Assembly (NCBI GenBank): GCA_032358255.1
Contig: JAULBX010002002.1
Span: 87,697-151,696 of the forward strand
DNA: 64,000 bases
Source of the DNA: Heterotrichella gracilis
Taxonomy: Eukaryota > Sar > Xanthophyceae > Tribonematales > Xanthonemataceae
Direction of reading: 5' to 3'
Each line of letters opens with the position of its first letter. The first letter of the stretch is position 1. The position numbers and the translations under genes are program-made. A model generated the notes under the pieces. It saw only the letters and a program-made list of their open reading frames with translations. It searched no databases and had not been told where the DNA came from. Below are positions 6,723 to 61,255 of the stretch, piece by piece.

Positions 6723-9658
6723 CTACCCCCGCCCCAGCCTGTTGACCTCCTCATCCACCCACTGGTTCACCTTGAGCTGCATCACCCCCCTTGCCACCTC
6801 AATGATGTCGGTGATCTCCTGCTCACTCTGGGAGGTGCGCGGCTCCTTCAGCAGCACCTGAGGAAGCAGCGCAGAGGAAAGATAGAAATATACAACAATA
6901 ATATTTATTATCATTTAGAATATTCAATTGAAAACAAAAGTGGATTGGCAAGGAGCAGTTGGCAGCCGGACAAACAGCGGACCAGGCAGCAGCACCAGAG
7001 ACAAGGGTCACCCTAAAACATGTACCCTAAACAAGGGTCATCATAAACAATAAATCCTAAAGCTGTTGACAGACCAGCAACAGAAGCAGGAACAAGGTCC
7101 GCAACCAAACAGGAAAAGGTCAAGAATAAAAAAGCTAGACCAAGAAGCAAACAAAGGAGAATAAGACGGGAAGGATGCGCACCTTGTCGTTCATCTTGAC
7201 TGCGCCAGCTGGCAGCTCGATGGCAAACCACTCGTGCTGGTAGATCTCTGGGATTGTGATTCGCCTGGAGGGGTCTGGCTCCAGCAGCGATGTGAGCAGG
7301 TCTTTGCACGAGGTGGACAGGGTGGGCAGCAGCTTGAAGCGCCTGCAGGGAAGCCAGGGGGTAAGAGTACTGGTTGCATGCATATTTGCAGCGAGCAAGG
7401 CAGGTTCAATATGCATTTCATTCATTACATGGGATATCCAGCAGGGCGCAAGATTAATTCCACTCATTCCAGCTGGGTATGATGATATGGCTCAAGGAGA
7501 TCAGTATATGTATCCAGCAGGATGCAGAGTGTGACTGTGACGCTGCTGCAAAATTCCTCACCAGGCCCCCCTCAACCCCTACTCTGCCCCCACCCCCTCA
7601 CCTGTTGTGCATGCGCGGCACCATGGCCTGCATGCGCCTCTGGTCATCCAAGCGATGATCCCCCGCCTCCTGAAACGGGTACTTCCCCATGAGCATGACG
7701 TACAGTATCACCCCGCAGGACCACACGTCTGACTTGTGGCCGTCGTAGTTGACGTCGCTCAGGATCTCGGGGGCGATGTACTCTGGGGTGCCCACCACTG
7801 AGTTGGGGACCGAGTCCACGTTGTCGTTCTTGGCATACCCTGTGGTGCGGCACCAGGCCACGCTTAGGGTGTAGGGTTTTCAGTAGGGTTGGGAACAAAG
7901 TTCCAGGTTGCTGCCCTTGCCATGATGCATCATAGTCATGGTAGGGTAAAATTCATGGTAGGGTTGAGATGCGGAGGGTTGATGGGTGAAGGTGGGCAAG
8001 GATATTGGCTTGGTGCGCTGAGCCAAATCACATGAGGTGCACCACAGGGCTACGCACATCTGACAAATCATATGACATTGTCATGGTCAGCTGGTTGCTC
8101 CTCTTTGCTGGGTTACAACTGGATCAAGCGGGTGCGTGTGTGCAAAGTGGGCATGCACATCCATCTGTTGGCGGGGTTGCACTGTGGAGGGATGGGTGGC
8201 GTACCAAAATCGCAAATCTTCATGACGGGGAACTCCAGATTGGAATCAAGGAGCAGGTTCTCCAACTTCACATCCCTGCACACCAGATGAAATGAATTGG
8301 TTGTGATCACAATTATGTAATGATGCTGACCATCACAGCATCACCTCATGCAGGCTGTCATTGTGGATCACAACATTGTAGAGCTCCATAAAAGCAAATG
8401 CAGTACAATCACCCCGCATGCACCACAACCTCACACCAACCAACCGCCTCAGCTCACTGCATCCTGCAAGCTGCTCTCACCTGTTGACGATCCCCCGCTT
8501 GTGACAAAAGTCCATCCCGATAATAAGCTGCTGGAAGAACCAGCGGGCACTGGTCTCAGCCAGTCGCTTCTTGCCGGCCACATACGCAAACAGGTCCCCC
8601 CCTGACGCGTACTCCATCACGATGCCCAAGTGGTCGTCTGTCACAAACACCTCCTTGAAACCGATGATGTGGGGGTGCCTGAAGAGGGGTGGAAAATGGA
8701 GGGAAGTCAGGATTCATGCCTTTGGCGGCTGTTTATCAGATGCAGGTATGAACACATCCCATTCATGGGCTCATGTAACGAAATGCTCGATGCCTTCTGA
8801 TCCATTTTGCCCTCAAAGTGATACATCTCTAGGCAGCATGGGCTGTCCCTGGCGCCACACACCACCTCCCCATTCAAAAGCTCCTTGATGGCATGTGCGA
8901 GGTATTTGCAACCCTGCTACACAGCCCGCCATCTCCTGAAGCACTGCAATGCAGTAGCAGGTGCCATTACCTGCTGCACAGCCGGTGGTTCATGATTTCA
9001 CGATGACGTATTCCAGTGCAGCTTGATGACACATACTAGTGTTTGCAACCCTGCTAGTCAACCTGCCACCTACTGAAGGTGCCCATTACCTGCTGCACAG
9101 CCGGTGGTTCATGATCTCCCGCTGCACGTATCTGGTGATCTGGCTGCCCCGCGGGATGTACTTGACAGCCACCCGCTCATTGGTCTCCACATTCACGTTC
9201 AGCTCCACACGCCCAAAACTCCCCTCATTCAGATACTTGACCTTCTTGTACTTGGCGTAGGGGTTGTTCAGGGGGCGCGGCGGGTGCACCGGCATTTCTG
9301 GCATGGATTCAAAGATGCTGCCCCGGGTGGAAGCCCTCGTTGGAGGTTCAACGCTGTCTGTAGACATGGCAATGGTTGCGGCTGAGGGCATCTCATCCTC
9401 GTTCTCCTCGAAAGGGTTGTACCGATTGTCGTCCCCGGCGCCAGCTGGCGCCATTCCCCCGTGGTGGTCTGGTTGGCTGCTTGGGGTCATCCCCACAGGG
9501 TCTGCGTCTACCAAGCTCATGGCTGCCAGGCGAAGCGACTCCAGGGAGAGGGCCACGGGGCGGGCGGGTGCTGGCCTGAGGACCCCCGGGTCGCTGCCAG
9601 GGCTGTCGTCTTCAAAGGGCGACGGGGAGGAGGGGGCAGGGAGCTGTGCAGCCGCCAT
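6723..9658 (-). CDS. SnRK2-type serine/threonine kinase
   Basis: Six exons, 9090-9658, 8481-8678, 8205-8275, 7602-7839, 7183-7342 and 6723-6857, give 456 residues. Residues 1-136 are a disordered Pro/Ser/Ala-rich extension. The kinase domain runs from about 137: glycine loop [15 protein letters not shown] lysine near 166, DVKLEN catalytic loop near 257, DFG near 277-279 followed by YAK, and [10 protein letters not shown]. The C-terminus holds [14 protein letters not shown], like the regulatory helix of SNF1-related kinase 2, and DFGYxK plus VGTPxYIAPE also point to SnRK2. SnRK2 kinases act in osmotic, ABA-related or sulfur-starvation signalling; which applies here is unknown. Odd points: the loop reads NRD instead of HRD, the N-terminal extension is long for the family, and the stop codon sits inside a telomere-like tract. 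Start is the first ATG after which codon bias is coding-like. Confidence 0.88.
7858..7965. repeat. Telomere-like repeats in a kinase intron
   Basis: Degenerate TTTAGGG-type units (TAGGGTGTAGGGTTTT, GTAGGGTTGGG, GTAGGGT) lie just upstream of the acceptor of the exon that begins at 7839. Confidence 0.6.
8903..9030 (-). repeat. Duplicated exon-1 3' end and donor in SnRK2-type intron 1
   Basis: The end of exon 1 with its donor (real border at 9090) recurs about 119 bases further into the intron, with the copied border at 8971. A run of 30-plus bases is nearly identical. Flanking intron (TTTGCAACCCTGCTA) is duplicated too. Confidence 0.85.
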
Positions 9659-10860
9659 GTCCTTTGGCCTGTTGATGGTGTGCGCGGGGCGAAGGTGTGG
9701 GTACTGTAGGGGTGGTGCAACAAGGGCTATACAAGGCGGGTCAACAGTGCTTTGCAATAAGCGAGAACGGGGGTGGACCAATCCTAGGATAGAGCACAAC
9801 CAAGGAGCATGGCGCAGCAGGTACACATGCAACGTGCACCTTATTACAGTTACAAGCTTCCCCAGAATATGCATCCGAAACCAGAGGTCCCAAGCAGTGC
9901 ACAAACCAGGCGCACTAAGATGGCAGTACAGGACACGCCCTAATCAGTCACTACCAACCCAGCTGCCATGATTTAAAGTTCTACCCCAGGACCTACTTTG
10001 TAGGGGTTCCAAGGCGCTCCTTTTTGCTGCCCACCAGCTTGAAAGAGAACATCCCGGTGTGAGGGCAGCTTCCCCTAGACCTTCTCCCTGCACAGCTGGA
10101 CTACCAAGACCAACCACCTGCATGCAAGCAGGAGCCAGCTTAGTTGTACAGGTGGCCTCTAAGACATAGAGTGAGACAAGTGTTGTGAAGCGGGTTGCTG
10201 GGGGCAAAGGTGACCACCTCGATTACTCCAAGGCTAGCTGCATTTGCCATGGAAGCAGGGCGAACATGCAGTGCCTAACCCAACAGGTTGTCTGCTCTGG
10301 GCAGCAATCGTCGGTGTATGTTTGCAATAAAAGGCCGTCCTACCGTGGTGAAGAGTAGAACCGGGTGTGGGCTCCTATGGCATGGTTGTCATTGACGATG
10401 CCTCACTGAGACGGGCGCAGATATGGCACTGCCCTTTTTGCTGAAGGTCGCCGGCTCACCCTGCCAGTAGATCCAGTGTTTTGTTGTTGGCATCGCGACT
10501 CTTGTTGGACATGCCAACCCAAAAGCACCCCACGATGTGTGCCAGGTCGATCCGTGCCTCTACAGCTATGCAAACATATGCAGTTTTCGCTGGTTGTCAA
10601 CAGTGTGCACTTTAAACCCATAAAATACTCATACGGGTGTTCCCGCGAACCCAAACAGTTTTTTTTTATAAATCACTGGGTTGGTCACTAATCTATCCCT
10701 GTTATGCATGCATGCATTCTTGCAGGGCCCACCTCGCAAACGCTTCCCAGTGTGTACACGGACAAAAAGGACGTTTGCTCTGGCTCCTTGTTACATTTTA
10801 TATCCTGGTTGCAGCAACACCACCACTACGTAACGTTTGCAACACCATTTAAATACACTG
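9659..10860. promoter_or_regulatory. Bidirectional promoter region, SnRK2-type kinase / MYG1
   Basis: About 1.2 kb between divergent start codons. A TTTATAAATC element lies near 10667, roughly 190 bases before the MYG1 start, and a TGCATGCATGCAT palindrome near 10704. No exon is supported here. Confidence 0.4.
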
Positions 10861-13489
10861 ATGCTGCTCGCCCCATATCGAGCTGTTGCCACTCGTGTTT
10901 GTAACCCCACACTAGCAGCCACCGTGCGTCAGACAGCCCTCCGTTCTATGAGCATTGCCGTACAGTCTGCTGCAGCGGACGACTTGAAACGTAAGATGGT
11001 GCGGATAGGCACCCACAACGGCACGTTCCACTGCGATGAGGCACTGGCATGCTTTCTGCTCAAGCGGACCCCAACATACAAAGATGCGTCCATCGTGAGG
11101 ACCAGGGACCCAAAGCTGCTCCAGGAGCTTGAAGTCGTGGTCGACGTGGGGGGCGCATATGACCCAAGTGAGTCCTCCTGACATCTAGAGTCCGAATGGT
11201 GTTGGGCATGTGGCGGCTCAGAACGATACGAACGGACGGGTCTCTGCCTGCCTGGCGAAGTTACAATCCCCACAGTTGCGAGTACAAGCTGCCTTGTTGT
11301 TCTGGGGCTCTGTCAGACGTTGCATCTGTGGAGTTGTCGTTCCCCACTGTTGACACTGACTGACTGACACCCTGTTCTGGCCCAGGTACTTTCCGGTTTG
11401 ACCACCACCAACGGGAGTTCCAGGACAACTTTGGCAACGGTAGGACCCTCGGGACTGGCAACTGCATCACTGGCTGCTGTTAGCTAGCAACAAACTTCCA
11501 CAGGCATGCACATGCCGCTATGTCCAGCTATGCATACCCAAAGGACAATGCATTCCTGCCACTTCTGGTGCAAATGCTATGCCCCACCCATGTTTCAAGA
11601 CACTTTTGCCACGCATCCCTAAGTGCATGCCTGCCACTGCACCTTTGCATAACATGGCACTGTGGATGCACCTGCCACTGAACTTTTTGCCTGGCAACCC
11701 ACAGGGTTCAAGACGCGCCTGTCTAGCGCGGGACTGGTCTACAAGCACTTTGGCGCGGGCATCGTGGGCGATGTCATGGGCCTGCCCGCTGACCACCCCG
11801 ACGTGAAGACGGTGTACATGGCGGTGTACAAGAACTTCATGGAGGCGATCGATGCGATCGACAACGGTGCGAATGGTCACATGGGTCTCTTTAGGGCTGC
11901 GTTTACACCCCCTAGCCCCCATCCACTGCTGGTGTGGATACCTTGTCCATGGCTTTCACTTGCAGCGGTGCCTGGCGCTGATCCTTGCCCAGCATTGGCT
12001 GCTGCAGCATGGCGCAACGCCTGCACAGCGTCTCCCCAACACTCCACAGCATCATTCGCCACATCATGCACGCGTCCCTGCCAGGTGTCAACCAGTGGGA
12101 TGCCGAGGGCCCGCCCAAGTACGTGAACAGCACGCACCTGTCTGCGCGCGTGGGCGCGCTCAACCCCAAGTGGAACGAGGAGGACAGCGACGAGGTGCTG
12201 TACACGCAGTTCCTCAAGGCGGTGGAGCTCACAGGGGCGGAGTTCATGGAGAGCGTGGCCTACTTTGCCAAGGTGCGCCAGGGTAAATTGGGTGAAATTG
12301 AAATGGGTACCAGGGTAAAAATGGTGGGTCCGACATGCAAATGGTCGGTGTGGAGGATCAGTCCATGATGAGTAATGACCACCTGGGGATGGTTTGGGAA
12401 TAATTGATCGGCCTGTGATCATTGCCCATCTCTGCAAGTGTAAGTATGAACTCCTGGGCGCCATGCAAACAGTTGTGGACGAAGTTCATAGCGAGCAGTA
12501 GCTACTTCTCAAAGGTGCGCCAGGGGGCTAAGGGGACAGTGCGCCGACGATCAGCTGGGAATCAGCTGATGGTCAACATTGCTCACAGCTTGCACAAACC
12601 TACAGCCCATCACCGCAGAGCATGCACAGGCGTATGCATGAGACAGTAAATAATATGGCATATATTATCTGACGTACTATTTTGTGGCACAGGTGTGGCT
12701 GCCTGCGCGCACCTACGTCCAGGAGTCCCTTGCGCAGCGCTTTGATGCGGATCCCAGCGGTGCCATCATGCGCCTGGTGCACTACTGCCCATGGAAGGAG
12801 CACCTGTATGAGCTGGAGGAGGAGATGGGCATCAAGGGGCAGATAATATACTGCCTGTACGAGGTAGGGTGGTAGGGTTTAGAAGTTAGGGTTTAGGTCA
12901 AGTTAGTGTGCAGCGTTGCCTGTAAAAGTTAGGGCGTGTGTGGGTTGATTGGGACACCGCTGAGTGGATCGTGTGGCAATGGTCGGTGCATGTCGGGTGG
13001 ATGATTGATGGCGCGTGATCGGTGCGTGCATCCCATGTGATTGAAATGGAATAAGACTGGCATGGTGTGGGCCATGAGGTCGCGGCATGCAGGTTTTGAG
13101 TGGGCACGCGGCGCAGCTTGCATGTTGCAAGTACATTTAAAAAGAAAAAGTGTGTGTTTCTGGGGTCCCGTTCAACGCCAGCAGCCACATGCCATAGCAG
13201 TTGGCAACTTCGCCCCACCCCGATCCCGCCCTAAATTCCACTCCCGTGCCTGTTGCAGGATGGGCGCGAGAAGAAGTGGCGCGTGCAGGCGGTGTCTGCA
13301 TCCGCGGGCAGCTTTGAGAGCCGCAAGGGGTTGAAGAAGGAGTGGAGGGGAATCAGGGACCAGGACCTGTCTGACCTCGCGGGCATCCCAGGCTGCGTGT
13401 TTGTGCACGCGTCGGGGTTCATCGGGGGCAATGCAACCTATGAGGGCGCGCTGGAGATGGCGCGCCAGTCCCTGGCCGCGGCGGAGTGA
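10861..13489 (+). CDS. MYG1: MYG1 family metal-dependent exonuclease
   Basis: Exons 10861-11167, 11386-11439, 11705-11866, 12085-12272, 12693-12863 and 13259-13489 join to 370 residues. Motif GTHNGTFHCDEALACFLL at about 50-67 and FDHHQREF near 106-113 are the metal-binding signatures of MYG1 (UPF0160), a DHH-related phosphoesterase that in yeast and mammals acts as a 3'-5' RNA exonuclease in nucleolus and mitochondria. The C-terminal GVSGxxD-type segment is represented by VFVHASGFIGG and EGALEMARQSL. The first 45 residues (MLLAPYRAVATRVCN, basic and Ala/Arg-rich) look like a mitochondrial presequence; an internal Met at 30 or 46 could give a nuclear form without it. Length matches the family (human about 376). 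Intron 4 contains a decayed copy of the exon-4 end. Confidence 0.94.
12465..12530 (+). repeat. Decayed duplicate of MYG1 exon-4 3' end
   Basis: The stretch ending AAAG at 12513 followed by GTGCGCCAGGG matches the real exon-4 end (AAG at 12272, then GTGCGCCAGGG), 241 bases downstream within intron 4. Upstream bases align (GAAGTTCATAGCGAGC against GGAGTTCATGGAGAGC), but the copy holds an in-frame stop. Confidence 0.75.
12864..12900. repeat. Telomere-like repeats at MYG1 exon-5 donor
   Basis: GTAGGGTGGTAGGGTTTAG and GTTAGGGTTTAGG start exactly at the donor site, so the donor GT is the first base pair of a TTTAGGG-like tract. Confidence 0.7.
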
Positions 13490-15929: not shown

Positions 15930-18900
15930 ATGACCGAACAGCAACAAGATGCATCGCACGATGAGTCTCAAGCACGGTATGAGGTGCTCCTGGAAGGGCT
16001 GAGGCACAAGCCGCTGCGCGTGAGCAGCATCACTGTCGAAGGTCTCAACCGCACCAAGGAGTATATCGTGCAAAGGGAGCTGCGCCGTGGGCTGGGCGAT
16101 GCGGAGACCCTGGAGGAGATCAAGGATGCCGCATTGGAGGCGTTCCAGCGGCTGCACTCACTGGGCATATTCAACGCCGTGAACGTCACCGTTGATGAGG
16201 ATGAGATGGTGGGTGCTTGGTTTTGCAGCACCATAGTGGTTATGATTTATAGAGCATGCATGCATGCTGACAGGTGTTGGTGCAATGCAGGGCAACCCTG
16301 ATGCCTGCAACATACACATCCGCTGCGCAGAGAAGGGGCCTGTGAGTCTGCACACGGGGACATACGTCCAGGGCACCGAAGGTGGGTCACAGCCCTGTGT
16401 GGCGTGGGGCTGGGTGGACAGGATGTGACGCCCTCCTTGCCTCTACCTTGTTAACGGACAGGCTGCATATATGTGTACTCTTCCACCTACTCAGGCCAGA
16501 AAGCGTTCAACTGTTGTCACTACCCACAAGGGCGCCGCTCTGCCTCTGGACACCATCCCAACACCATGCATGGAGGCAGATTAATGGGGTGGCTGCTTCG
16601 CCCCTAAACCCTAAACTCCCTGTCATATGCCCGTGGCCTATCCCAAGAAGCGAAGCCCGAGGATGGCTTGGCTCAGATTGTCCGTCCCCACCCGTTCCTT
16701 GCCACAATCCCATCTCCATCCACATGCGCCATGCAGATTAGGGGCGGCAGCTCTGCTACCTGCCGTTTGGTTGTGAACTCCCACCAAAGAGGCGCCCACA
16801 GATGGTGCTGTTGACCATGTAGAATCCTCCTCGGTGTTGATCAAGTACATTTTCCCTTGATTGGTCGTGTACACTTTCTGTGCAGGCAGCTTGGAGATGA
16901 CGGTCAACGTGTCCAACCTGCTGGGCCGAGCTGAGAAGGTGTCGGCCAACGTGGAGTATGGCAGCTCAAGCAGCAATGAGTACAGCATCGGATTGAGCAA
17001 ACCGCACCTCAAGGGCCTGGCGCTCGACCTGGACGTCAAGGGGTTCCAGACCTACAAGAGCTGCCAGCAACAGTCCTCGTATGTGGAGCGGTTGCGAGGC
17101 GGGACGGTGGGCGTCACAACGTAAGCCACAGCTCTATGCCAGGCGGATCATGGCACTTACATGCTGCTGCAGCTCTCCCAAGGGTGCATCGGTTGCACCA
17201 TACCATGGCGCTGCACACCGTACGCAGCCCTAAGGGGGCACGGGGGACTAACAGTCTGAGGATGCATTGCTACCTGCATTCTGTCCCATAGTATACCACG
17301 CCATCAAGTCCACATGCTATGCAGCTGCACGGGGAGCCAGAAGGGGGGATAAATCACTCGGGGAATGCATTAGCAAGGCGGGCCCTCCCTCACAGGCCCT
17401 GAACCCCAACCCCTAAACCCTTAACCCTATATCCTCACAGGGAGGTTGGCAGGCACTGCTTGGCCTACGAGCTGGGCTTGCGCTCCCTCACAGACCCCTA
17501 CCCCTAAACCCTAAACCCTACATTCTCACAGGGACGATGGCAGACACTCCTTGGCCTACGAGCTGGGCTGGCGGTCCCTGACTGACCCTACCCACATGGC
17601 CTCAAACTCCATCCGGCAGCAGTTTGGGCACAGCCTCAAGTCATCGCTGCGCCACATCTTCACATTCCATGTGCCGCCGCCGGTGGACCACCCAGGGGCG
17701 TATCTATGTGGCGGGAGGTACGTGCGGCTGGGCTCGTTTTCGTCATTTTTGCATCCATGTCAGCAGTACAGCCCGATTAGTAGTCAGCCATGCTCATGCA
17801 TTGTGTCCTGGCAATGAATTTATACCATTTGTGGGGGTGACTGAGGTGATGTGGAGTGGTGTGCTGTGGAATTGGGTGATAGTGCAACCACGCAAGGCAT
17901 CCACGTGATCTGCCTCACCACCACCAAACAGCACACACAGGGCCAGGGCAAACACCTTGCCATAGTGCTGGTCAGGGTTGGTGCACATGCCAGGAGCCGC
18001 CAACGAGGTCCCAACACAAGCATTGCCCTCACACCCCACCGCACCACCCCGCCGCACTCCTACATCCCACTGGCCCAACCCACCGCACTCCCACACCCCG
18101 CAGGCTCACCACCGAGCTATTAGGCCTGGCCCCCGGCTCCCACCTGCAGCGCGCAGTGCGGAGCCATGTGCACAGCCAACTGGACATTCCCCTCACACGG
18201 GGAACCCTCCTCGCCCTCGGTGTTGACCTGGGTGTCATACTCCCCTTGGGGGTTGGCCTGGCCTCGGCCCAAACCAACGTCAGCGACAGGTTCTTCCTGG
18301 GAGGCGCGGGCAGCTTGCGGGGATTCGGGCAGCGGGGGATAGGCCCCACGGATGCGCGGCGCAGGTCGATGCCGACAGCTGGCGGAGTGGGGATCGAGCC
18401 GGGGACCTCTGCCCCTGTGGCATCCACCAGCAGCGAGGTAAGGGGTGGACAGGTCGATGTGGTGCATGCGCCGCATCCACCCTGTGACCTGGTGATGCCC
18501 TGGCATCAGTGCAGGCTGCATTTTGTCCTCAGCAATCCCCCGTGATTGCATCTTGTCTGGATCGTGATTTCATTGTGTATCATGTCCTGCTATTGCACCC
18601 TGCAGCCGCGCATAGGCTCCCATCAGTACTGCAACTTCCACGCACTGACAGCCATCGTACATGTTCCATCACAACACTCGTTTTCACCTTGTGCGTCAAG
18701 CTGCAAAGTCCTGTGCACCAACTGACGCCACCCCTTCCGCCCTTGCCACAGGCCCCGCCCGATCCCCTTACCCCCCGCGTCACCGGGCCCGTCAAGCGTG
18801 ATGCCTTGGGAGGTGACCTCAGCCTTGCTGTCATGGCTGCGCTGCGATTTGACATCCCGCACTCGGCCTTCCAATCGCTGGGCATCCAGGGCCACGTGTT

Positions 18901-19363: not shown

Positions 19364-19412
19364 GGTTTTGTGGAGTGCCTGTTGGCGTCACGCACAAATC
19401 CTACTAGGGTTT
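19349..19412. repeat. Palindromic telomere-like repeat at SAM50 stop codon
   Basis: CAAAACCCTA-C-TAGGGTTTTG is a perfect inverted repeat with a one-base spacer that contains the SAM50 stop codon. About 40 bases downstream is a diverged second copy (CAAATCCTACTAGGGTTTG). Confidence 0.85.
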
Positions 19413-20428: not shown

Positions 20429-23400
20429 ATGCTGCAAGCGATTACCAAGGCCGGCTGGCCTGCACCAAAGCAGGTAACACGAAATTCCACCTGCTATTTG
20501 TTAGAAGGTTGTAGCCCGCCTAGCCTGCGCCAATGTGCTGTTGGGCGTATGCATGCACTGCATGCATGCATGTGCAACCTTGCGCAGGCAACACCTAGCT
20601 CTCACGGCTCCAGTGCACAGCCATGGCAGGAATTTTTTTTTATTAGCGTTGCTAAAAATGGTATGTCGATAGTTAAGTGTCATGCTCTGACCAAACGGCA
20701 AGGTGGGCACCGTCCCTCGCATGCCGCTGTCTACCTTGGATGCACCCACCACACCTGGCTGCAGTCACACACCAGCCTGCGTCGGCAACCCCTGACATGG
20801 CACTACTCTCCCTGCCCAAAACCCCTCTCGCGCTTCTCACCCTGTGCGCCGCGCCAGGACCTACACCCCATGGTGGTGGAAACCCTAAAGGCGCTGGATA
20901 GGGTTTACCCCGGTGTGCGGGAGACCCCCCTGCTGGCCTCCTCCTGGCTGTCCCAGCAGACCAAGGGAAAGGTGTACCTCAAGATGGAGAATGACCAGGT
21001 AGGGATGGAAGTGCTTGATTGGGAGCCCCTTGGGACTGTGTTCTGCCTCAAAATTTGAGGGCACCCTAGCCCCTCAACCCTCAACCCTTCTGGCGTGAAA
21101 TACTTGATTTGGATCGTGTTCTGCCACAACAATTGGAAGCTGTGCTGTGATAACCCAAAATTGTATCTCGCTATATTGCGGGCACCTGCCACAAGATAAC
21201 ATTTACCAGGGTATATCAGAGCGAGCACCTGCTGACAACGCATGTGTCTCAGACACCTGCACCAGAAGGCAGCATGGCGAGTGCACAATTGTTTTCTACG
21301 GCAAAACGCATAATTTAAAGGGTAATGGGTACAATTTTTTCCACGACATTCCCGTGTTACCCTTGCTACAGGTCACAGGCTCCTTCAAGGCCCGCGGCGC
21401 CATGCACAAGGCGCTGTCGCTCAGCGATGACCAGCTGGCGGCAGGCATAGTCACCTGCTCCACAGGCAACCACGCGCTGGGAGTGGTGCACGCATGCGCC
21501 CAGGTCAACAAGGCTAGGTGGGTCTTATCCAGGGAATGGAAGTACGCCAGTCTGCAAGGTCGGAATTCAGGGAGGTGTGCATGCCATACCGTAACTAGGG
21601 CTGCGCATACCCTAGTCAAGGTTCAGGGAGGTGTGCATACCCTACCCAGGCAAAGTCACGTGTCCCTGGCAACCATGCACTGAGGGTGGTGCACGCATGC
21701 GCCCAGGTCAACACCGCAAGGTGGGTTCTGCCCAGGGTGTGTGCATACCCTAACTAGGGTCAAGGGCATGCACACCCTAATCACATCTCATGTTCTGACT
21801 GTGCTCAATAGGGTGCAAACTGTCACCAAACTAATGATCTGATCCAACAACAATCCCAGGCTGATCTTGCACCGATCCAACTAAACTTGCACCCATCTAA
21901 CTGATCCGCCCTGATCCGGCTATGATTGCAGGGAGGCCACCCACCCCCCCGTGCAGTGTGCGGTGTACGTCCCCCTGGGCATCAGCGCGGCCAAGGCCTC
22001 CAAGCTGGCGGCTGCAGGCGCTGACGTGGTGCAGTTTGCCACCGACTGCGTGGACACAGAGACTGAGGCCAGGCGGGTGGCGGGAGAGCGGGGTGCGGTG
22101 TACATCAGCCCTTACAATGACATACAGGTGGGTGTGGCCTGAAAAATAGGTTACGTTTGCATCCCTCACCCACTCCCACCCACCCCGCCCACGCATACAC
22201 ACACTCCCCGCACCCACTTATTCACCTACAGCTCCTATGATGGCCTGTGGGGGAATGTGGATTAGAAACTACACTGGGTTGGGGCCTACAAAATTACGGT
22301 GCATCAGTCCCTTCTTGATCTGTCGGTGGGTGGGAGTTGATGAGCAGACTGGATCGGGTTCGTCGAGTGGCATTGGATGGGCAAGTGAATAGAGGTTGGC
22401 TTGAATCTTGGTGCAATGCACGGTATAATTGCAGGCCCTTGCTCATCCAAGCCGCACCTTACCAGCACAAGGAGGGCAATCGAACCAACATGTAGAGAAA
22501 GGCATACTTGCTGGCTATGTTGGATTGCTGTGCACATCTAATGCAACGCCCTGCAGCACATCCGCGTGGGTGGGGCATCACAAGCACTCCACATCCTCCT
22601 GGCAGTACCCTAGGCAAGGTTTTCCCTGTGCGCCACTTCCCCGCAGGTTGCGGGAGGGCAGGGCACCATTGCTGCAGAGCTGTTGGCTCGCCTGGGGCCC
22701 GGTGCGCTGCACGAGGTGTATGTCGCAGCGGGAGGAGGCGGGCTCATCTCAGGTACGCATGCGTGCAGTATGACACTTTACCCAGCCATTGATGCCTTCT
22801 CAGATGTAATAGCGAATATTGGATGTGTGTGGAGCGCACGTCTTCCTCACCACATGAGGGGGGTTTCTGAGCCACCCTGTGAGAAACGATGTCTTTCTAA
22901 CCACACACGCCCTATCCAGGCATCGCCGCTTTCCTCAAGTCTGTGGACCCGTCCATTCGGGTCGTGGGCTGCCAGCCACTCGCTAGCCACGTGATGCAGC
23001 TGTCAGTGGAAGCAGGGCGAATAGTGGATGGGCCTACACTGGACACGCTATCAGATGGCACTGCAGGTGGGGTTAGGATTTTAGGTGGGGTTTAGGCAGG
23101 GTGCATAGTGGACGCACCCTCATTGGAAATGCTATCAGATGGATACTGCAGGTGAGGTCAAGGCTGGCGCTGGGTTCAGGGGTTGGAGATCTTAAAACCC
23201 TAATGCAATGGCTGGATCTGGGTGGGTGGGTGTCACCACCACACCAATGATGAAGTGGATAACAAAGGCTGTGTGGACCATGCGCTGCCTGGGTGTGTAG
23301 ATGTACTAGTAGCTGGCAATGGGTGCTGCTAACCTGTTTGGATGACAGGCTGCATGTATCCCAACAGCCAATGTATTCTGGTCCTGAGGGATACATGTGG

Positions 23401-47719: not shown

Positions 47720-50700
47720 TTATCCCCTGGGGACCAGCAGTACATCAACTCGGGATGGGCGGAGCGTTATTCGTGGACCAGGCTCCGGGAAACCCATCCC
47801 CAGTGGGCGCCTCATCTCGAATCGTTGTAGCGCCAGGGCTACCACAAGCACAGTCTCCATCATGGCAAACCCTACAGAAGGGCATAGAAGGCGCACTTTA
47901 CACGATAGCCAGCATGGTTGTGGCGGCCAGGGGTGACGTTGGCAACAAGCATGCGCACGCGGAAACATCTGATGAACACAAAACCTTACTAATGATAACT
48001 TGCAGCGCGATGCGTACTCTAAGCAAGAGGCTACGAATTAACAGCCATGGTTCACACATTGTAATGACGACACTGATCCCATGCCACAGTAGTTGACTCC
48101 ACCATGCATTTCAAGCCCACACTGCCTGTACAGAATTGACCCTGAACAAATAGCACAGCGCGGCGCACACAATCCCCACAAACGGCGCACACAATCCCCA
48201 CAAATGGCGCACACAAGGGGCTGCCAACATGCATATATACCCGCGCACCTGTGCCGATGCAATTCCTAGGTCCCGCCCCAAAGGGGATGTACGCCCCATT
48301 CGGACCCATGCCGGAAAATGCCCCCATTGCCAGTCCCCCCGGTGCTGACGCAGCATCTATTTCCAGCCACCGGCCAGGGTTGAAATTCAGCGGGTCCTGC
48401 CACATGTCGGGATCTCGATGCAGCAGAAAGGGACTGACCAGTGCCGTGGTGCCAGCTGGCAAGTCAAACCCTGCTAGGGTAATTGGGGCCTGGGCACACC
48501 TGCCCACCAGGTATGCGGGGGGCATGAGGCGCAGGCTCTCGCAGATGACTGCATCAAGGTAGGGCAACCTCCTGCAGTAGGTGAATCAAAGTACATCATC
48601 CTCTTTCAAATCTAGAAACAAAGGCAATAGGGTATGTAACATATTGCAGGACGAATGCATTCCAGCAGAATGCAGCCCGATCAGCACTCTGTCCTACGTG
48701 CCTTGCGCCAGCCCTGTCATGAAATTGGTCACATAATCAGCTATGGAAACCTTACAGCCGGAAGAGCAGCTACCCAAACCCCGCCATGCCGTACCCTAAC
48801 CCTCTACGCCGTACCCTAAACCCTATCCTCCGTACCCAAAGTCAGCGGCGGCTGGCGCCCGCCCCTGCAGCACCCGCTGCACCTCCTCCGCTGCCGGCTG
48901 CTGCACCAGGGGGTGGTGCGATAGGAAAGCAGTGACCCACCCCATGAGGATGGCACTAGTCTCCTGCCCCGCCACCAGTAGGGTCATGAGCTCATCGCGC
49001 AGCGGGCGGTCTGCCATGCCCTGGCCATCGTCGTCCACGGCAAGGATGAGGTTGTCTAATAGGTCCTGCAGATGGGGTTAACGTGGGGTTGACAGTATAC
49101 CATTGCGTTAAACCATCATTCATTTCTGTCTCGAGGGTGGTCAAGGTTTAGGGATGAGGGCATGAGCTCGTCTTGCAGCAGACGGTCTGTCATGCCCTGA
49201 GCATTGTTGTCGGTGGCGAGGATGAGGGTTGTCTAACAGGTCCTGCGAGAAGGGGTGGGGTGTCAAGATGATTTTTATGGCGGTGTGTGTGGAACCATCT
49301 TGTGGTGTGAGAGGGGCGTAGGTGTAACGCCGCACCAATAGTTCACGCAAACCAACACCCCTCTATTTGGATCTCCACGTCATTGCTGTAAATTTGCAGT
49401 GCATACCACCATGACCTCAGACCACCAAAAAAGTATCCGACCACTTCACCCTGGACATAGCTCTTGCAAGATGACTTCAGCACATCAGCACAGGCACCCC
49501 ATGCATCAACCAGGCAACTAACACAACACAGATGCAACCATAATGCAACCAGAATGCAACCAGAATGCAACCAGCAAGCCATTGTTGCAGCCATTCAACA
49601 GCGCCTCACCTGTGCAGGCCGAGGGTTTTGCTCCAGCTCCGCCCTGCGCTTGCGAATGAGCCCATACACCACGCCATCTAGGCGAGCCACAGCTGCTGCG
49701 TACTGCAGGTTTTCTGGGGTTGGGACCCACTCGGGCAGCGCCAGCAGGGTGGCAGAGCGCTGGGCAAAGAACTCGAACGCCTGCCGGATAGCATCTGCAG
49801 ATGGGGCCGTGTGGCGGTGCCATGTCAGCAGGTCCACAATAAACCCTAAACCCTAGACCATGAGAGACAGTCCGGTGGAGCAGGGCCGCTCCACCACAGC
49901 AGCAGGTGCCTATGCCACACCACCGTGCATGTGATTTTGTGCCAGTCTAGCAGGGTGCCACGTCAGCACCCCTGCCCCACCTGCCACCCCTCGCGCCCGC
50001 TGCCCTCCCATAAGCTCTAAACCCTAAACCCATAAACCGTAAACCCTGAGCCCTATGCCATAAGCCCTAAACCATGAACCTTAAACCCTAAATCCCAATC
50101 CCACCTGCCACCCCTCACCCTGCTGGCCTCCTATGCTTCTGCCCCCAAACCCACCTGCCACCCCCCGCGCCTGCTGCCCTCCCATGCCGCTGCCCCCAAA
50201 CAGCGCATCCACAGTGATCTCAAGAGTGAGCTCGTTGTAATCAGCGTACACATCCCGCAGGCCCCCCTGGCGCCAGGTGTGCGTCATCAAGGACTCCCCA
50301 TTGGCTACCATGGCCTGCGTACACATGGGGTTGCCAGTGATACTGTTATTGTCCAGGGTTTGGGTTTTTTTGTAGCGCTGTCATCTTTGTTGTGTATAAG
50401 GCTTTGCCAGCACGTACACATGGCATTGCTATTACTCTCGATTCAGGGTTTGTTGGCGGCAAACCTTAGCAACCTGTTTGGCCCTCGTGGCCTGCAAGGC
50501 CCTAACCCTTAAACAGGGACAGGTCAGTCATTTATTAGAGTTTTGCCCTTAGACTTGGCCACCATAGTGTTGGTGCCAATGAGTTCCACGGCCAGCAGCA
50601 CCCCTATCCACCCAGTAAGCGGGATCACAATGACATACCAAAAAGCCTTCCATTCTAATGTAGCAGGAAAGGGCTTCTGCGTGCATCCTTTTGAACAGGC

Positions 50701-52094
50701 TTAGTGTGTGGATAGAGGGGCAGCTCGCGTCAACCCTGCCTATAGGCACCACAGCATAGCACAGCGCACAGGGCAGTCATGCACAATGGTCGGAACCATT
50801 GCCGTAACCCGGTTTGCCCATCTGTAAAAACATACTAAAACGGCTCCACAGACTCTACAGGAAAACAAACAAAAACCCTTTGTGCCAAAAGAACGTGTGT
50901 TAAAACCAGTTAAACAAAATAAACAATAATAGGTTGCATGGCCCACCTGTGCATATGCAGCCACCGCAGCCCTTCGGAACGCCGGTGTGGAGAGGCGCCG
51001 CTGGCGCTTCCACAGCTCGCCATCGCTGATCAGTAGACCACTCCCTGCCAGCTGACTCCCAGGAAAGAAAGCGGTGCCCTCCTGCCGTGCCACATCAGAA
51101 ATTGACACCAGCACAGCACTCCATGCACTCCATGCATAATGGCAACGAAGTGGATGGCAAGCAATGGCATGCACGCGGTTGCTGCCACCGATGCTATATA
51201 TATTGTCACATAATAACGTGCTGTGGAGAATATTCAGGTAAAACCCCACCTTGACAAAGGTTACACAATCCGTTATGACATAAATAAATTGTCACATATA
51301 CATGTCTTATATAAGTGAATATTCCAGGTGAAACCCCACCTTGACAAAGGTTGCAGCATCGGTTATGAGCACCTGTCGCGCCACTTCAGGGTCTGACACC
51401 AGCACCACCCTCTCACCCCCCAGCAGCAGCCCCACCACCTTGCCATGGCAGCTGGTGAGCTCCTGCAAAAACCCTAGAGGGTTTTGAAGCAGCTGCACCG
51501 CCACGTCGCCTTGGGGACCTGCCACAGAAAAAACACACTGCGTGACATTCCCATCGTCCTGATATGCAGTTTGCGATTGCGGATGCCTAACAGGCAGAGC
51601 AGGATGGCAGCTTGGTTCACCATGGCATGGTAGGGTGCACAGATGCGGGCCATCGCTGCACTGGGGTACGCGCTAAGAGGGCCGCAGTCTCCCATGATAC
51701 GTGGAAAAAACCTGGTACAACCTGTGTATTGGCCAACTTGCACGCATACGTCAACTCATTACACCTGTCAATATGCATGCATGCATGTGGCTGCCCTCTC
51801 ACCAGGAGGGAAGTTGGGTGGAGGCGGTGTGACAAGCCGCTGTAGTCGCACGAATACGCCATCAAGGGCTGTAGTAACGGCTGCAAGCCCGTCCGCCGGT
51901 GGCAGAATGCCCTGAACCGTACTTTGAGCACTGGCTAGCCAGGACGGGAACTGTGGCTGGCCACTGGTCGACTCTGAACCAGAACCCCGGTTGCAGCATA
52001 CTGATACCCTTGGCTCACGGGTTCTTTTGTTTTGATGGCGCTGGATGTTCCTGGGGCTTTGCCATGGTGGCCCGAGCGCTCCGGTGTGAAGCAT
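47720..52094 (-). CDS. Cytochrome P450, probably plastid-targeted
   Basis: Eight exons, 51803-52094, 51340-51518, 50947-51081, 50155-50314, 49610-49794, 48836-49065, 48249-48571 and 47720-47871, give 551 residues. All P450 signatures are present: WKRQRRLSTPAFRR (C helix), AGQETSA (I helix, about 349), ESLRLMPPAYLVGR (ExxR near 405-408), FNPGRWLE (PERF region) and the haem loop YIPFGAGPRNCIGTGFAMME with ligand Cys near 498. The N-terminus is Arg/Ser/Gln-rich without a membrane anchor, suggesting a plastid transit peptide. Overall it resembles the CYP97 clan (carotenoid hydroxylases) and related algal P450s, but substrate cannot be assigned. Three introns carry duplicated exon ends. An alternative upstream start exists but is non-ATG. 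Confidence 0.92.
48785..48840. repeat. Telomere-like tract at P450 exon-6 donor
   Basis: GCCGTACCCTAA units repeat twice, and the third, CTCCGTACCCAAA, is the real exon-6 donor, so the donor itself looks like one repeat unit. Confidence 0.7.
49158..49255 (-). repeat. Copy of P450 exon-6 5' end in intron 5
   Basis: About 95 bases matching the exon-6 start and its acceptor (real border 49065) occur 177 bases upstream in the gene (copied border 49242). The copy has a one-base insertion that shifts the frame and an altered acceptor (CTCGCAG). Confidence 0.9.
49532..49574. repeat. 11-bp minisatellite in P450 intron 5
   Basis: Four tandem copies of an ATGCAACCAGA-like unit. Confidence 0.85.
49975..50150 (-). 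repeat. Two extra copies of P450 exon-4 3' end plus telomere-like tract
   Basis: Exon-4 end and donor (real border 50155) recur at 50105 and 49981. Between the two copies lies a run of degenerate CCCTAAA units from about 50015 to 50095. Confidence 0.88.
51230..51285 (-). repeat. Copy of P450 exon-2 3' end in intron 2
   Basis: The last ~40 bases of exon 2 and its donor (real border 51340) recur 90 bases downstream in the gene (copied border 51250), including the shared AACCCCACCTTGACAAAGGT run. Confidence 0.9.
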
Positions 52095-55802: not shown

Positions 55803-58800
55803 TCAGGAATTGGTTTCCTTCTTTTCTTGGGACCGCGATCGCGATTTTTCACCCCCGGCGGCTTCCCGGGGAGGCAAGGGGGACTGCTGGCGAGCAGGGG
55901 AGGGAGGCGCCTGGTGGTGACCCGGTGACCCTCGCCCGTTCTCCTCCCCTCGTTCCGTTCCCTCCCCAGTGACAAAGGGGTGCTTGAGCCCCTCCCTTGC
56001 AGTCAAGCGCTGCTCCGGGTCGTAGGTGAGCAGCCTGGCAAATGGGAGGGGGGAAGGGCGTCGGTATTGGTGGTCATGGGATCAATGGTGATGGTGTGTA
56101 GGGTGACCAGGACCCTAAATAGCGCATGGTGGACGATGGGGGTAGGTGCAGGGTACAGAAACCCTCAAAGGCTGAACACTTGGGTTGCAATCGTGGCGAA
56201 GGGTTGCTCAAGTTTGCACCCTTGCAGCTTGGCGCTGCTCCGGGTAGTAGGTTAGCAGCATGGCAGTGGGGAGGGGAGAAACAGGGACTTCAGGAGTTGC
56301 AATGGGGTCGTGGAAGACGGTGTGCTGCATGCTGCTTAACAGTCTCACGGTGTTCCCTGGTTCAAACCCCTGTTTCACGCCCCAGGTAACACCTCAACAG
56401 AGCCACTTCCACCCAAGGCCACATCCTGCCCACGTAGTACAACCTCTGCTCGTGAGCTGTCATGCAATGGCAAGCTGGTACCCACCTGCTGATGCAATCC
56501 GCCAGCGACTCCAGCCTGGCCTGCACCCCAAACCCTACACCCCAAACCCTACACCCCAAACCCTACACCCCTAATCCTGCACCCAAACCCTACACCCAAA
56601 CCCGCATCACCCACCTGCAAATGAGGTCCTCCAGCTCCTCCAGCCTACCCTAAACCCTAAACCCCGATCCCCGAACATTGCGCCCCTAAAATGCGTTTGA
56701 GGTCTGCTAGCTCCTCACCCCATTCCTAAACCCTACATCCCCAAACCCTACACCCTAGCCACCCACCTACGGAAGAGGTCTGCCAGCTCCCCCAGCCTAC
56801 CCTGCACCCTATCCTCTACACCCCCAAACCCTACACCCTCATCCTAAACCCTAAACCCTATACCCTAACCCTAACAGCCCACCTGCGTACGAGGTCCGCC
56901 AGCTCCTCCAGCCTTTCCTGCACCGACACGTCAGCCTGGTCCCTGAGCATGCGCCTGATGTCGCGCAGCCTGCCCACCGCCTTGAGGCTGTTCTTGGAGG
57001 GGGCGCCCTCGGGCCAGTTGAGCACGTGCCTGCGGGATGAGTGGGATCGCGCTGAAACATGCATGAGGGAAACTGTTTGAAATGGAAAAGGGTTCTTAGA
57101 GAAATTTACAGTATTGAATTAAATTTACAGTACATGATAAAATCCGTGCTTGTAATATACATTATATAGTTGACCATATGACTGCGTGGCAAACTGGGGT
57201 CAAAGCTTGAATGCACACCTTACTGATTCTGGACTAGGTCTAGCAGAAATGAGGTGTATGTGGCTGCATGAAAAGTGAAACGAGCTACCCCCAAAATATA
57301 TGATGAACCCTACTGTGAGGCTCCTCAAAGAGTTCAAAACCCTGCCGTAGGGTCTGCGCCCACCCCTGCCTGCTTACCTCTGAGACACTTTTAGACTATA
57401 AAGAACCCTACCAATGATAGGGTACCATAGGTTTTACAATTTACCCTGCCTGCTTACCTCCGAGGCACAAAGTACTTTGCCGCCTGCTTGCCCGCCCTGC
57501 GCGCTATGTGCGTGGGGATGGGCCCCAGCGCAGCCTCCATCATGGCCAGGTGCTCAAGGTTGTCGTGGGTCTGGAACAGGGCATCGCCTAGGGGGAAAGC
57601 GGGGGAGGGAGGGGAGGGATCAGGTGCATGCACAAGGGGGATGATGCATCAGCTATATGCTCAAGAGGCGGGGGAGGGGGTGAAGTGTGGCACCCATGCC
57701 GCCCACCACCCACCACCCGCCATCCACCAATCCCCAATCACACCGCCACCCATTCATGTGCTCATATAGCCAGGGTATTGCCCTGCTTTCAACCCGTTGC
57801 TTGTGGCATCCACCAACCACCACCACCACCCACCGCACCCGCCACCCACCTGTTGCCAGCTCCATGATGATGCAGCCTATGCTCCACAGGTCGCAGGGGT
57901 AGCTCCAGCCCATGCCCAGGATGACCTCGGGTGCGCGGTAGTGGCGGGTGGACACAATGGTGGAGTGGTACTGGTCGTCGAATGTGGCTGAACCAAAGTC
58001 AATGACTTTGATGGCCCCCGTGCGGGGCACGCGGCGGCCGACCCTGCGGGACAAAAGGGTTGGTTGGGTTGGGTGAGGTGGGTGGGGTGGGTGGGAGGGT
58101 GGGCTGGAGAGGGAGCCAGTGGCAAACGCCCCATGCGCCACCCTTCCCTTGATGTGTGTGGACACGGTTTATGTAGGACTGGGTGTAGAATGTGGCTGAG
58201 CCAAATTCAATGACCTTAATGGCGCCGATGCCAGGTATCCGGCGGCCGGCCCTGCGGGGTAAGCAGGGGGCCGGTTTCAGAAGGTGGAGGGGAAGATGCA
58301 AGGGGGAAGGAGGGGTGGTGAGCAAGGGCACAAGGCGGCACCCCTGGAAAGGGGTGTGTGGATTGGGGTGTGTGAGGAGGGGGGCAGGGGGGAGATTGTT
58401 GATAATGAACGGTAAGGAGGGGAGGGGGGGGGGGCACTAGATTTAAGCACGCAGTGTCTCGAGGTTTGGATCTGTGCGGATGAGGATGGGCGTGTGCAAG
58501 TACCCTGCACTAGGACCAGCGTTTAGGGTTTTTTGCACCCACCTTGACCCCGGCGGCGGCGTCCGCTTCTCGTAATCCGAGCTGGCCAGCAGGATATTCT
58601 CTGGCTTCAGATCCGTGTGGATGAGGGTGAGTTCGTGCAGGTAGGCCACGCTCTCCAGCAGCTGCTTGGCAAATGCGCGCACGTTGTCCAGGTTGAAGGG
58701 CCGGTAGCTGTTCTTGCGCAGCAGGTCAAACAGGCTGGGCCCTAGCCGCTCAAACACCTGCAAGGGTTCAAAGTTAGGGTCAGGGGCTAGGGTAAGGTTT

Positions 58801-61255
58801 TAGGACGTCAGACAGGCTGGGCCTCTAGCCGCTCAAACACCTGCCAGGGATGGAGCAGGGATGGGAGGAGGATTTGAGAGAAAAGCGGCGGGTGCGTCAG
58901 GTGAGGGGTTTTGCACCTGAGCCCTGCAACCATGCACGGCCAATGGCCACCTGGCAGTGCGTTAGGATTTTTTGAGTGTGGCTGTATGCTAGCTGTGGGC
59001 GCGCATTGACAGCATGTGGCCGCATGCGGATTTGCGTTGGCGACTGATGTGGCATGTGCATATACGCATACATGCACATCTGCCTAGTATATGAGCTAGT
59101 AATGTACGAGTGTGTGATAAAGGCATATGTTCATCTGCATTATACTTGTGTCGCGTGATGAAAAGGATTGACGTGTGCCCACATAGAAGGATTAGCATGC
59201 GCTAACTAATATATGCATGTGAATAGAACCAACGCCTAATGATCAGCGCTGTGGCATGTTGGGGAGGCATGTGGCCAAGTGACCAATGTGCCGCGTACCA
59301 TGCAGACGTGCCCCCGGTAGTCAAACCACGTCTGAAGGGCGACGCAGTGCCTGCAGGTGGAGAATGAGGGAGGGGTAAGCCACGCCATGCGCCAGAGGAT
59401 GTGCGCATGCATCTTGGTATAAAGTTGAGGGCTCAAGGATACGTGCATGCATCTTGGTCTAGGGTATTAGGTTTGGGGCTCAAGGGTGAGTGCATGCATC
59501 TGCTCCGTTGCACCAGCCATGCCTATCGGAGAGTGGGTACTAGCGGTGCACAGGCAGGGCTCAAGGGTGTGCCGGTGGTGTTATAGGCTGCACTCCTTAC
59601 TAACAAGCCAATACAACGCCCAATCGACAAAGTGCAACAAGATTTGAGTGTGGTCAAAGAGTTTGTCATTCCACCTACCACGTTCCCTCCATGTCGTTCT
59701 TCTCAAGGGTGTTGAGCACCTCCAGCTGCGGCCAAGGGGAAGTAACGGTCGGTGCAGTGAGGGGAATTGACAGTGCAGGGGCAGGAGGACTAGAATAGAA
59801 CTATGCTAGTCCCAGTGAGTGCAGGGGGAATACTAAATGACCATTCACAGGGGTCAAATATGGTGCACAGCATGCCACCGCCGAGGTGGGTGGCGCAGAC
59901 TTTCTCAAACATGACTGGTAAGTCAGCTGTGCAACCCCTCCATGGAAACCCTTTCAAGGGCCTCAGGCGCTAGCCGGCCGCGTGCCGGCGGCGGCCACCC
60001 ACCTCGATCATGGCCGCATCCCGGTACTTTTGGACGTTGCGCACGATCTTGATGGCCACATAGCTCTTCTTCTTGCGGTCCCAGCACTCCAACACCCTAC
60101 CAAACGTCCCTGCGCATGGCACCATGGAGGGTCTTAGGGTTTGAGGGTTTAGGGTTTTTATCACCCACCAAACGCTTCTGCCCAAGGGTGGCTTTTAGGG
60201 TTGCGGGTTCCAGCGCTCTAGCGCCCAACCGATATCCTTGAGGCAAAGGGGTCCTGGCAAGGAATGTCCTGGGCGGCCACATGCACATACAACATGGCGC
60301 GGCACGTGAGGGCGGGCATGCATGCCTAATGTTTTTACGCAGTGCTGGCTGATTTATAGGGAGGCTTGCACTGTGGAAGCTGCACCAAGGCTGGCGGCCA
60401 CCCCGTCTGCGTAAGCAAGCGTGCCGTGCGCCAGGGGCCCATGTTAGGCATGGACTGCAAAGCCGCGCTACGTGTGTGTCGTGCAAAGGCTGCAGATCCC
60501 TATCCCATGACGTGCAGCTCGCTGCTGACGCTGGTATGGCAAAAGAGCTGTATTCCTTGCAGATAAGACCCCAGACATATAGCTGACAGCCTTGGCTGGC
60601 AACAGTGGATGTTTGGTGGCATACGCCTCAAGTAGCCTGTAACTACACACACCTTCTCCCATCTTGCTGAGGATCTTGTCTGCAAAGTGACAAGTTGAAG
60701 GGTTAAGGTGGGTTTGGTGGGCAGGCCTCACACAGCAGCAACCCAGAGATCAACCCCACTTACATCGAGGCGTCAGGTTCTCTCCGAGTTGGAAAACGTA
60801 GTGTCCGTCCTGTAACGCCAACCAACCAGTCAGTCACGCCCAAAAGCTGCATCGTGACTACATACGCAAGCATAGACAGCTGGTCACACGGGCGCTTTTC
60901 AAACTTTTCGTACGATATCATCCAGCCGTCGGGGAGGCGAAGGGCGGTCAATGCAGTATAGCGACTGGGCTCGGATGGGCCGTGGTACGCCCGGCCGACG
61001 TATGCTGTCTCGAACAGGCTCCTCATCTTCGAGCTGCGAGCGTGGGTGGTGGTGTTAGTCACATGCATGTTGTGGGTTAGTTTTTTGCATGCATGCATTG
61101 GGGCGTACCTTGATAGCTTTGGCGGCCCTGCTGGCGCGCAGGTGCGACTCGGAGGTCCGCCTCCGTTTCTTGTTCTTTTGGACGTCTGTGAAGCTCACGT
61201 CTTTGCTAAAGCTGCCCTCCTTGCTTCGCCTCGAAGCGCTGATTGACGTACTCAT
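55803..61255 (-). CDS. AFC: LAMMER/CLK dual-specificity kinase
   Basis: Twelve exons, 61109-61255, 60914-61033, 60764-60809, 60653-60679, 60003-60109, 59679-59725, 59299-59350, 58543-58757, 57850-58043, 57458-57587, 56883-57029 and 55803-56034, give 487 residues. After a basic Ser/Arg-rich N-terminus with KKRRR comes [20 protein letters not shown], the typical LAMMER lead-in, then [18 protein letters not shown] lysine near 134, HTDLKPEN (229-236), DFGSATF (from 269), STRHYRAPE and EHLAMME (330-336), the signature that names the family. All catalytic residues are intact. These kinases phosphorylate SR splicing factors in the nucleus. The C-terminus is Arg/Ser/Pro-rich (SRSRSQEKK). Exon 4 is only 27 bases. 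Introns 7, 8, 10 and 11 carry copies of neighbouring exon ends. Confidence 0.95.
56218..56270 (-). repeat. Copy of LAMMER exon-12 5' end in intron 11
   Basis: About 45 bases matching the start of exon 12 (real border 56034) recur 225 bases upstream in the gene (copied border near 56259). Confidence 0.85.
56480..56882 (-). repeat. Array of LAMMER exon-11 3' ends in telomere-like DNA
   Basis: Four diverged copies of the exon-11 end (real border 56883) lie near 56486, 56615, 56692 and 56767. Three retain a recognisable donor (plus-strand CCCACCT). CCCTAAACCCTACACC-type repeats fill the spaces between them. Confidence 0.88.
58153..58262 (-). pseudogene. Pseudo-copy of LAMMER exon-9 5' half in intron 8
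   Basis: About 110 bases match the start of exon 9 (real border 58043) 208 bases upstream in the gene (copied border 58251), with acceptor CCCGCAG retained. It reads [20 protein letters not shown], so the catalytic DFG aspartate is glutamate in the copy. The copy lacks the exon-9 remainder and its donor. Confidence 0.88.
58804..58850 (-). repeat. Copy of LAMMER exon-8 5' end in intron 7
   Basis: The acceptor and first ~35 bases of exon 8 (real border 58757) recur 83 bases upstream in the gene (copied border 58840), with a one-base insertion. TTAGGGTCAGGGGCTAGGG lies between. Confidence 0.85.

Follow-up and report, generated by a model that had tools for sequence, protein, structure and literature searches.

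Exon-end copies in the window

Introns of seven genes in the stretch of Heterotrichella gracilis DNA analysed here (the window: 64,000 nucleotides, C22:87697-151696 of a 68.5-Mb genome in 903 contigs) contain extra copies of the adjoining exon end together with its splice site. How do such copies arise, and are they peculiar to this locus? The sequence-only reading had placed them in at least twelve introns of the seven genes; we count 13, all in the genes it named: one each in the genes for a SnRK2-like kinase, MYG1, SAM50 and Whirly, two in a PALP dehydratase gene, three in a cytochrome P450 gene and four in that of a LAMMER-like kinase (Table 1). This count comprises the introns called above threshold, with one split LAMMER intron merged, and three sub-threshold introns that are clear by eye (MYG1 12235/12477, P450 51317/51228 and LAMMER 57444/57364). 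The sequence-only reading's upper figure of four extra copies per intron is compatible with a LAMMER intron that has three or four.

The expected Pfam families are recovered for eight hand-corrected proteins. Matches run near end-to-end for both kinase domains and for MYG1, PALP and Whirly, and span positions 20-339 of 462 for the P450. Pfam grades both kinases as protein kinase, the subfamily names SnRK2 and LAMMER coming from the sequence-only reading. Among the 120 best matches listed for the MYG1 protein, the closest are from green algae (best 70%; Parachlorella kessleri 68%, Myrmecia bisecta 67%). We take the source to be a trebouxiophyte green alga. A further fragment, at 51081-51121, matches the P450 exon part 51372-51412 (76% identity) and lies just before the acceptor of the next exon, separate from the main copy.

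Table 1. Junctions and their copies in the window. "Used" denotes the exon-proximal splice site, which is presumed to be the one spliced.
Feature	Positions	Strand	Basis or match
SnRK2-like kinase exon end and used donor (exon 9090-9658)	9022..9131	-	self-comparison, gene model, Pfam
SnRK2-like kinase junction copy, intron 8679-9089	8884..9011	-	72% over 129 bp, lag 138; exon part 90%
MYG1 exon end and used donor (exon end 12272)	12235..12283	+	self-comparison, Pfam
MYG1 junction copy in intron	12477..12525	+	80%, 39 bits; below threshold
SAM50 used acceptor and exon start (exon from 17532) with preceding telomere-like tract	17494..17584	+	self-comparison
SAM50 tandem copy of 91-bp unit	17403..17493	+	87%
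PALP dehydratase exon end and used donor (exon end 21517)	21442..21534	+	self-comparison, Pfam
PALP dehydratase copy of 21517 junction	21647..21737	+	83% over 93 bp, lag 205
PALP dehydratase exon end and used donor (exon end 23066)	23012..23073	+	self-comparison
PALP dehydratase copy of 23066 junction	23096..23158	+	79%, lag 84
Whirly used acceptor and exon start (exon 26185-26272) with telomere-like tract	26233..26318	-	self-comparison, Pfam
Whirly, two further unit copies	26323..26491	-	90% and 64%, spacing 90 and 83
P450 used acceptor and exon start (exon 48836-49065)	48982..49078	-	self-comparison, Pfam
P450 copy of 49065 acceptor junction	49158..49256	-	81% over 99 bp, lag 176
P450 exon end and used donor (exon 50155-50314)	50143..50185	-	self-comparison
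P450, two copies of 50155 donor junction (49969-50011, 50100-50134), telomere-like tract between	49969..50134	-	self-comparison
P450 exon end and used donor (exon 51340-51518)	51317..51368	-	self-comparison, gene model
P450 copy of 51340 donor junction	51228..51278	-	88%, lag 89
LAMMER-like kinase used acceptor and exon start (exon 55803-56034)	55994..56055	-	self-comparison, Pfam
LAMMER-like kinase copy of 56034 acceptor junction	56219..56280	-	82%, lag 225
LAMMER-like kinase exon end and used donor (exon 56883-57029) with telomere-like tract	56850..56924	-	self-comparison
LAMMER-like kinase, three or four copies of 56883 donor junction with telomere-like tracts	56481..56808	-	repeat family (56527, 56582, 56734), by eye
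LAMMER-like kinase exon end and used donor (exon 57458-57587)	57444..57468	-	self-comparison
LAMMER-like kinase copy of 57458 donor junction	57364..57388	-	92% over 25 bp, lag 80, 37 bits; below threshold
LAMMER-like kinase used acceptor and exon start (exon 57850-58043)	57970..58050	-	self-comparison
LAMMER-like kinase copy of 58043 acceptor junction	58178..58258	-	80%, lag 208
LAMMER-like kinase used acceptor and exon start (exon 58543-58757)	58725..58766	-	self-comparison
LAMMER-like kinase copy of 58757 acceptor junction	58807..58849	-	93%, lag 82

Frequency across the genome

The sample covers 274 kb of the 68.5 Mb: the window and 21 ten-kb stretches, 22 in all (labels such as L010, L014, L021 and L024 denote sampled stretches outside the window). 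Genes were modelled with a simple self-trained gene finder, trained on those 22 stretches, and its predictions yield 248 introns. Left out before counting were L009 (all N), L004, L025 and L027 (36-37% GC), exons scoring <6 and introns outside 40-1500 bp. Those three stretches of 36-37% GC, among 25 sampled, may be foreign to the alga. Three model faults are kept in the counts: the LAMMER copy at 56486-56534 is called an exon, so that intron 56035-56882 is counted as two; the lag at L015 6568 exceeds the length of its own intron; and the Whirly intron as modelled (26273-27162) engulfs an exon. Comparable faults are likely elsewhere in the sample.

Self-alignment of introns against their flanking exons, across the whole genome and with shuffled-intron controls, was put forward as a check with the earlier claim. 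In the 248 predicted introns of our sample, such a comparison finds the adjoining exon end copied inside 44 (18%). The 3' end of the upstream exon is copied in the downstream intron in 27/247 cases, against 1/191 for the intron on the exon's other side, and the 5' end of the downstream exon is copied in the upstream intron in 22/247, against 0/191. Reverse-complemented exon ends have no match in introns among 494 comparisons (one at a lower score), and exon ends compared with length-matched introns of other genes match once in 2,470. The copies are real and genome-wide rather than specific to the window: the gene-finder count above threshold is 11/61 introns in the window and 33/187 in the other 21 stretches, ten of which bear copies. 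The density that the sequence-only reading had judged far above chance in this window is indeed above chance, but it is not local.

Self-comparison of the window at >=35 bits gives 20 direct-repeat pairs at a lag of <500 bp, none at 500-2000 bp, two at 2000-5000 bp and six farther apart, while inverted matches at the same level number one near (a palindrome) and nine far. Across the 25 sampled stretches and the window, direct pairs at <500 bp outnumber those at 500-2000 bp by 113 to 3. Long imperfect palindromes occur at L007:5914-6101 (187 bp) and at 63274-63316 of the window (43 bp).

Assembly errors might be suspected where one pair of 98.8% identity (L010 5804/6020) abuts a run of N. Such errors would yield near-identical copies, whereas the copies differ by 0-22% in a continuous spread and occur in other stretches as well as in the window, and we give this explanation almost no credence. 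The L010 pair, at L010:5804-6104, may represent a tandem array that was collapsed in assembly.

At least one junction copy is present in 19 of the 48 sampled genes. Since these copies are of spread ages, rates, sizes, decay and splice-site competition become measurable within one genome. The load is uneven among genes: nine of 14 introns carry copies in one OSCA/CSC1-like channel gene and none of the 8 to 11 introns in four others. The channel gene (L021:1-8973, minus strand; Pfam RSN1_7TM) has copies far above other genes.

Structure of the copies

The 49 scored copies of the window and sample comprise 27 donor-side and 22 acceptor-side copies. Their identity to the source is 78-100%, in a continuous spread. 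Lags range from 50 to 442 bp, so that the clustering of offsets between 50 and 250 bases, as claimed from the window, describes the 43/49 at <=250 bp but not the upper end of the range. Lags are evenly distributed with respect to multiples of three (15, 16 and 18 copies in the three classes). Ten of the 49 bunch at 116-121 bp, which may be chance.

Copying does not stop at the splice site but continues into the intron; in 43/49 the intron extension outdoes all of 15 shuffles. The copied piece is on this ground genomic DNA. RNA-mediated copying of exon ends alone was also considered and is disfavoured by the same run-on. Junction-spanning tandem duplication, the process named in the sequence-only reading, agrees both with this extension and with the position of the copies on their own side of the exon. 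The cleanest form is an array in L014 of two 221-bp units that are 97% identical. This array (L014:8328-8833) precedes an exon start and is the youngest long array in the sample; its exon fragment may be part of a CYFIP/PIR121-like gene. In one L021 intron the exon end is accompanied by four further copies, as counted by eye.

GT or AG is retained in 35/49 copies (GT in 18/27, AG in 17/22), and the splice score of the copy equals or exceeds that of the used site for 11/27 donors and 4/22 acceptors. Selection against decoy sites is no more than a possible reading of these retention and score figures. Splicing that preserves the frame requires that the site be intact, that the lag be a multiple of three and that the frame stay open, and would be possible for 2/49 copies (L019 3467 and L021 5945). 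Judged from sequence, the exon-proximal site is probably the spliced one, because protein function would depend on it where so few copies can be spliced in frame. The earlier reading had stated it as a strict rule that exon 3' ends are copied downstream of the used donor and exon 5' ends upstream of the used acceptor. Copies do lie beside their own junction and not across the exon from it, which is the informative part, but the rule is largely tautological, because a copy is counted only if it is intronic and frame-breaking products are lost.

The retained dinucleotides and the two copies usable in frame are what might be expected if the copies were functional, as alternative exons or decoy splice sites. 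The other 47 would break the frame, meet a stop or have no site, and an insertion or deletion at the copied MYG1 junction is present in none of 60 aligned homologues; a functional role is very improbable.

As modelled, all 49 copies sit within longer introns; median intron length is 470 bp where copies are present and 305 bp where they are absent. Under the tandem genomic duplication model of intron gain, the duplications would themselves create new introns, and in potato, according to the passages cited here, a duplication that crosses an intron-exon boundary did make one (PMC4974935). No intron consisting of the duplicated unit was seen among our 49 copies, and the median of 470 bp stands against lags of mostly 50-250 bp. 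Intron gain by this route is a highly unlikely account of the copies; of the gain and growth proposed from the window, what stands is the growth of existing introns.

Position of local repeats relative to genes

Local repeat pairs fall into 76 clusters. Classed by best pair, 56 join exonic and non-coding sequence, 14 are intron-only, three lie outside genes, two are both-exonic and one is mixed; a looser classing by all pairs per cluster gives 65 junction, six intron-only, two intergenic, two both-exonic and one mixed. Random placement yields a mean of 21.2 junction clusters anywhere (maximum 31 in 400 trials) or 30.3 within genes (maximum 43), against the 56 observed, and 6.6-12 both-exonic clusters, against two.

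A junction copy should by our argument stay recognisable about twice as long as others, because its exon half is conserved. When this twofold recognisability is allowed for, the junction share among junction and intron-only clusters has p 0.09, and among young pairs 10/14 are at junctions where 52% are expected (p 0.19). Targeting of junctions and their easier detection are both possible explanations of the excess.

Telomere-type repeats beside the copies

Contigs C70 and C140 start with (CCCTAAA)n, and the genome contains 209 internal or terminal 28-mer matches to this repeat. The alga's own telomere repeat occurs in runs inside chromosomes, as it does in telomeric insertion at repaired breaks. 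Telomere 7-mers cover 3.2% of intron bases, 0.9% of other non-coding bases and 0.35% of exon bases. They are found between copies in 33/49 spacers, where the expectation is 23% from intron pieces of equal length and 17% from introns without copies; 16/49 spacers have none. Tracts are present in 40/44 introns with copies and 85/204 without, a comparison confounded by the greater length of copy-bearing introns. In two L024 introns the arrangement is clean: the exon end is followed by 9-19 bp of intron and then by about 20 bp of telomere repeat, after which the exon end recurs. The association with telomere repeats was absent from the text of the sequence-only reading.

Among 31 resolvable joints (filler of >=15 bp), the repeat is in the filler alone in 17, in the outer flank alone in six, in both in four and in neither in four (p 0.035); the 17:6 excess is modest and comes from a test chosen post hoc. 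A simpler comparison of spacer with outer flank gives 14:5 (p 0.064) and, for young copies, 8:1 (p 0.039), values to be read in the light of several tests having been picked after data inspection, as applies to any p near 0.04 here. Telomere 7-mers are sparser in joint filler (8%) than in the parts that were duplicated together (16% and 12%), which argues that many tracts preceded the duplication. Tract position within the spacer is unbiased toward the joint (19/33). The tracts were either re-duplicated from earlier rounds or are older than the duplications.

A mobile element or introner inserted at junctions with long target-site duplications would fit the recurrence of telomere-type words between copies. 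By eye, however, the 49 spacers have no common body beyond those words, and the units differ in length, so that such an origin has little probability.

The main rival to the explanation we prefer is that the telomere-like tracts near intron ends came first. They would serve there as short homologies or as fragile sites, at which slippage or unequal exchange duplicates the stretch holding the splice site, the tract being merely carried along. This rival is consistent with tract density being highest in the co-duplicated parts and well above that of introns overall, with the tracts in many introns that bear no copies, and with exon breakpoints lying <=10 bp from a telomere-like 6-mer in 3/49 copies, SAM50 and Whirly among them, against 0.7 expected (p 0.036). 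The other 46 exon breakpoints have no telomere-like word, filler alone exceeds outer flank alone, and 16/49 spacers are free of tracts. We consider slippage between tracts possible but rather doubtful.

Proposed repair of staggered breaks, and related systems

We lean towards recurrent short tandem duplication across junctions by repair of staggered breaks, with telomeric filler often added or carried along. At a staggered or paired-nick break, both ends would be filled in and rejoined, doubling the stretch between the nicks. Often the joint would also gain telomeric repeats, whether made by telomerase or captured, or inherit them from earlier rounds. Duplications inside exons would usually break the frame and be lost, whereas those spanning a junction could persist because the exon-proximal splice site still yields an intact protein. 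The distal copy would then decay inside the lengthened intron, and the cycle could be repeated. Both the break-repair route and any role of telomerase or fill-in enzymes are what we infer from this pattern. Because exon-end copies usually have telomere-type repeats nearby, the pattern suggests that introns keep growing through error-prone repair of broken DNA, with the proteins left intact.

In favour of break repair are the restriction of copies to their own junction, the direct and short-range pairs, the run-on into the intron, the few both-exonic clusters and the tracts in filler. Counting against it are the denser tracts in co-duplicated parts, their unbiased position in spacers and the spacers without tracts. 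Further, the alignable part covers <60% of the lag in 19/49 copies, more loss than would be predicted for a simple tandem unit whose exon part is about 90% identical.

Tandem duplication is already known as an intron source, with cases cited from Drosophila (PMC2891723) and a potato RdRp gene (PMC4974935) and in a review (PMC3443670), whose cited passages call the mechanisms of intron gain elusive, with few unambiguous events per route. The present copies resemble those cases, as far as the cited passages describe them, in being short tandem duplications in genes with splice sites within the unit, the potato unit also crossing an intron-exon boundary (PMC4974935). There, new introns are described case by case, whereas here existing introns are lengthened, 44 of 248 in the sample, with telomere-type repeats.

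Mammalian telomeric insertions at breaks likewise place telomere repeats beside direct duplications; the cited passages report target duplications at 4.5-16% of loci and ascribe them to staggered breaks (PMC2246262, PMC7215372). In those passages duplication is confined to that fraction and the sites look random, whereas here it is common, repeated and at exon-intron junctions. Where breaks have 3' overhangs, fill-in by CST-guided Pol alpha-primase is described as producing tandem duplications (PMC8355091). These are also short and direct rather than inverted, and involve a telomere fill-in complex at breaks. They differ in being experimental, obtained by Cas9 nicking in cells of mouse and human (one assay had 43-bp overhangs), and the passages cited here describe no telomeric filler (PMC8355091).

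In published work screened by title and the start of the abstract, with most subscription journals outside the coverage, we found no genome-wide account of exon-end copies with telomeric tracts in introns. The novelty lies in how common the duplications are, in their recurrence over several rounds and in the telomeric tracts that accompany them. A causal telomere link would tie a telomere repair pathway to gene architecture.

Orientation of telomere-type tracts

Telomere 7-mers are most frequent 20-40 bp in from each end of the 248 predicted introns. Spacer tracts are C-rich on the coding strand in 14/15 acceptor-side copies and 9/18 donor-side copies, and the ratio of C-rich to G-rich tracts is 40:6 in the last 60 bp of introns against 28:30 in the first 60 bp. 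Because CCCTAAC looks like a branch point followed by pyrimidines, splicing probably filters tract orientation at acceptors. The many sites with this acceptor bias are material for testing such a filter. We put forward tentatively a wider conjecture: telomerase and C-strand fill-in may routinely repair staggered genic breaks in this algal lineage and so be a main engine of intron growth, with splicing as a filter that would tolerate C-rich tracts, resembling a branch point and pyrimidines, before acceptors and both orientations after donors. We hold this to be possible but less than probable.

Counts across the whole genome, with TGCAGG and CAGGTG as splice-site stand-ins that include non-splice occurrences, give the following for 13-base tracts: within 3-30 bp before TGCAGG, 631 are C-rich and 336 G-rich, and after CAGGTG, 465 are C-rich and 538 G-rich. 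Among the first 100 places listed for these searches, repeated units recur at one locus, for example on C23 (72994, 73106 and 73218), C75 (85518, 85699 and 85805) and C27 (109930 and 110050), and these are independent of both the 274-kb sample and the gene finder.
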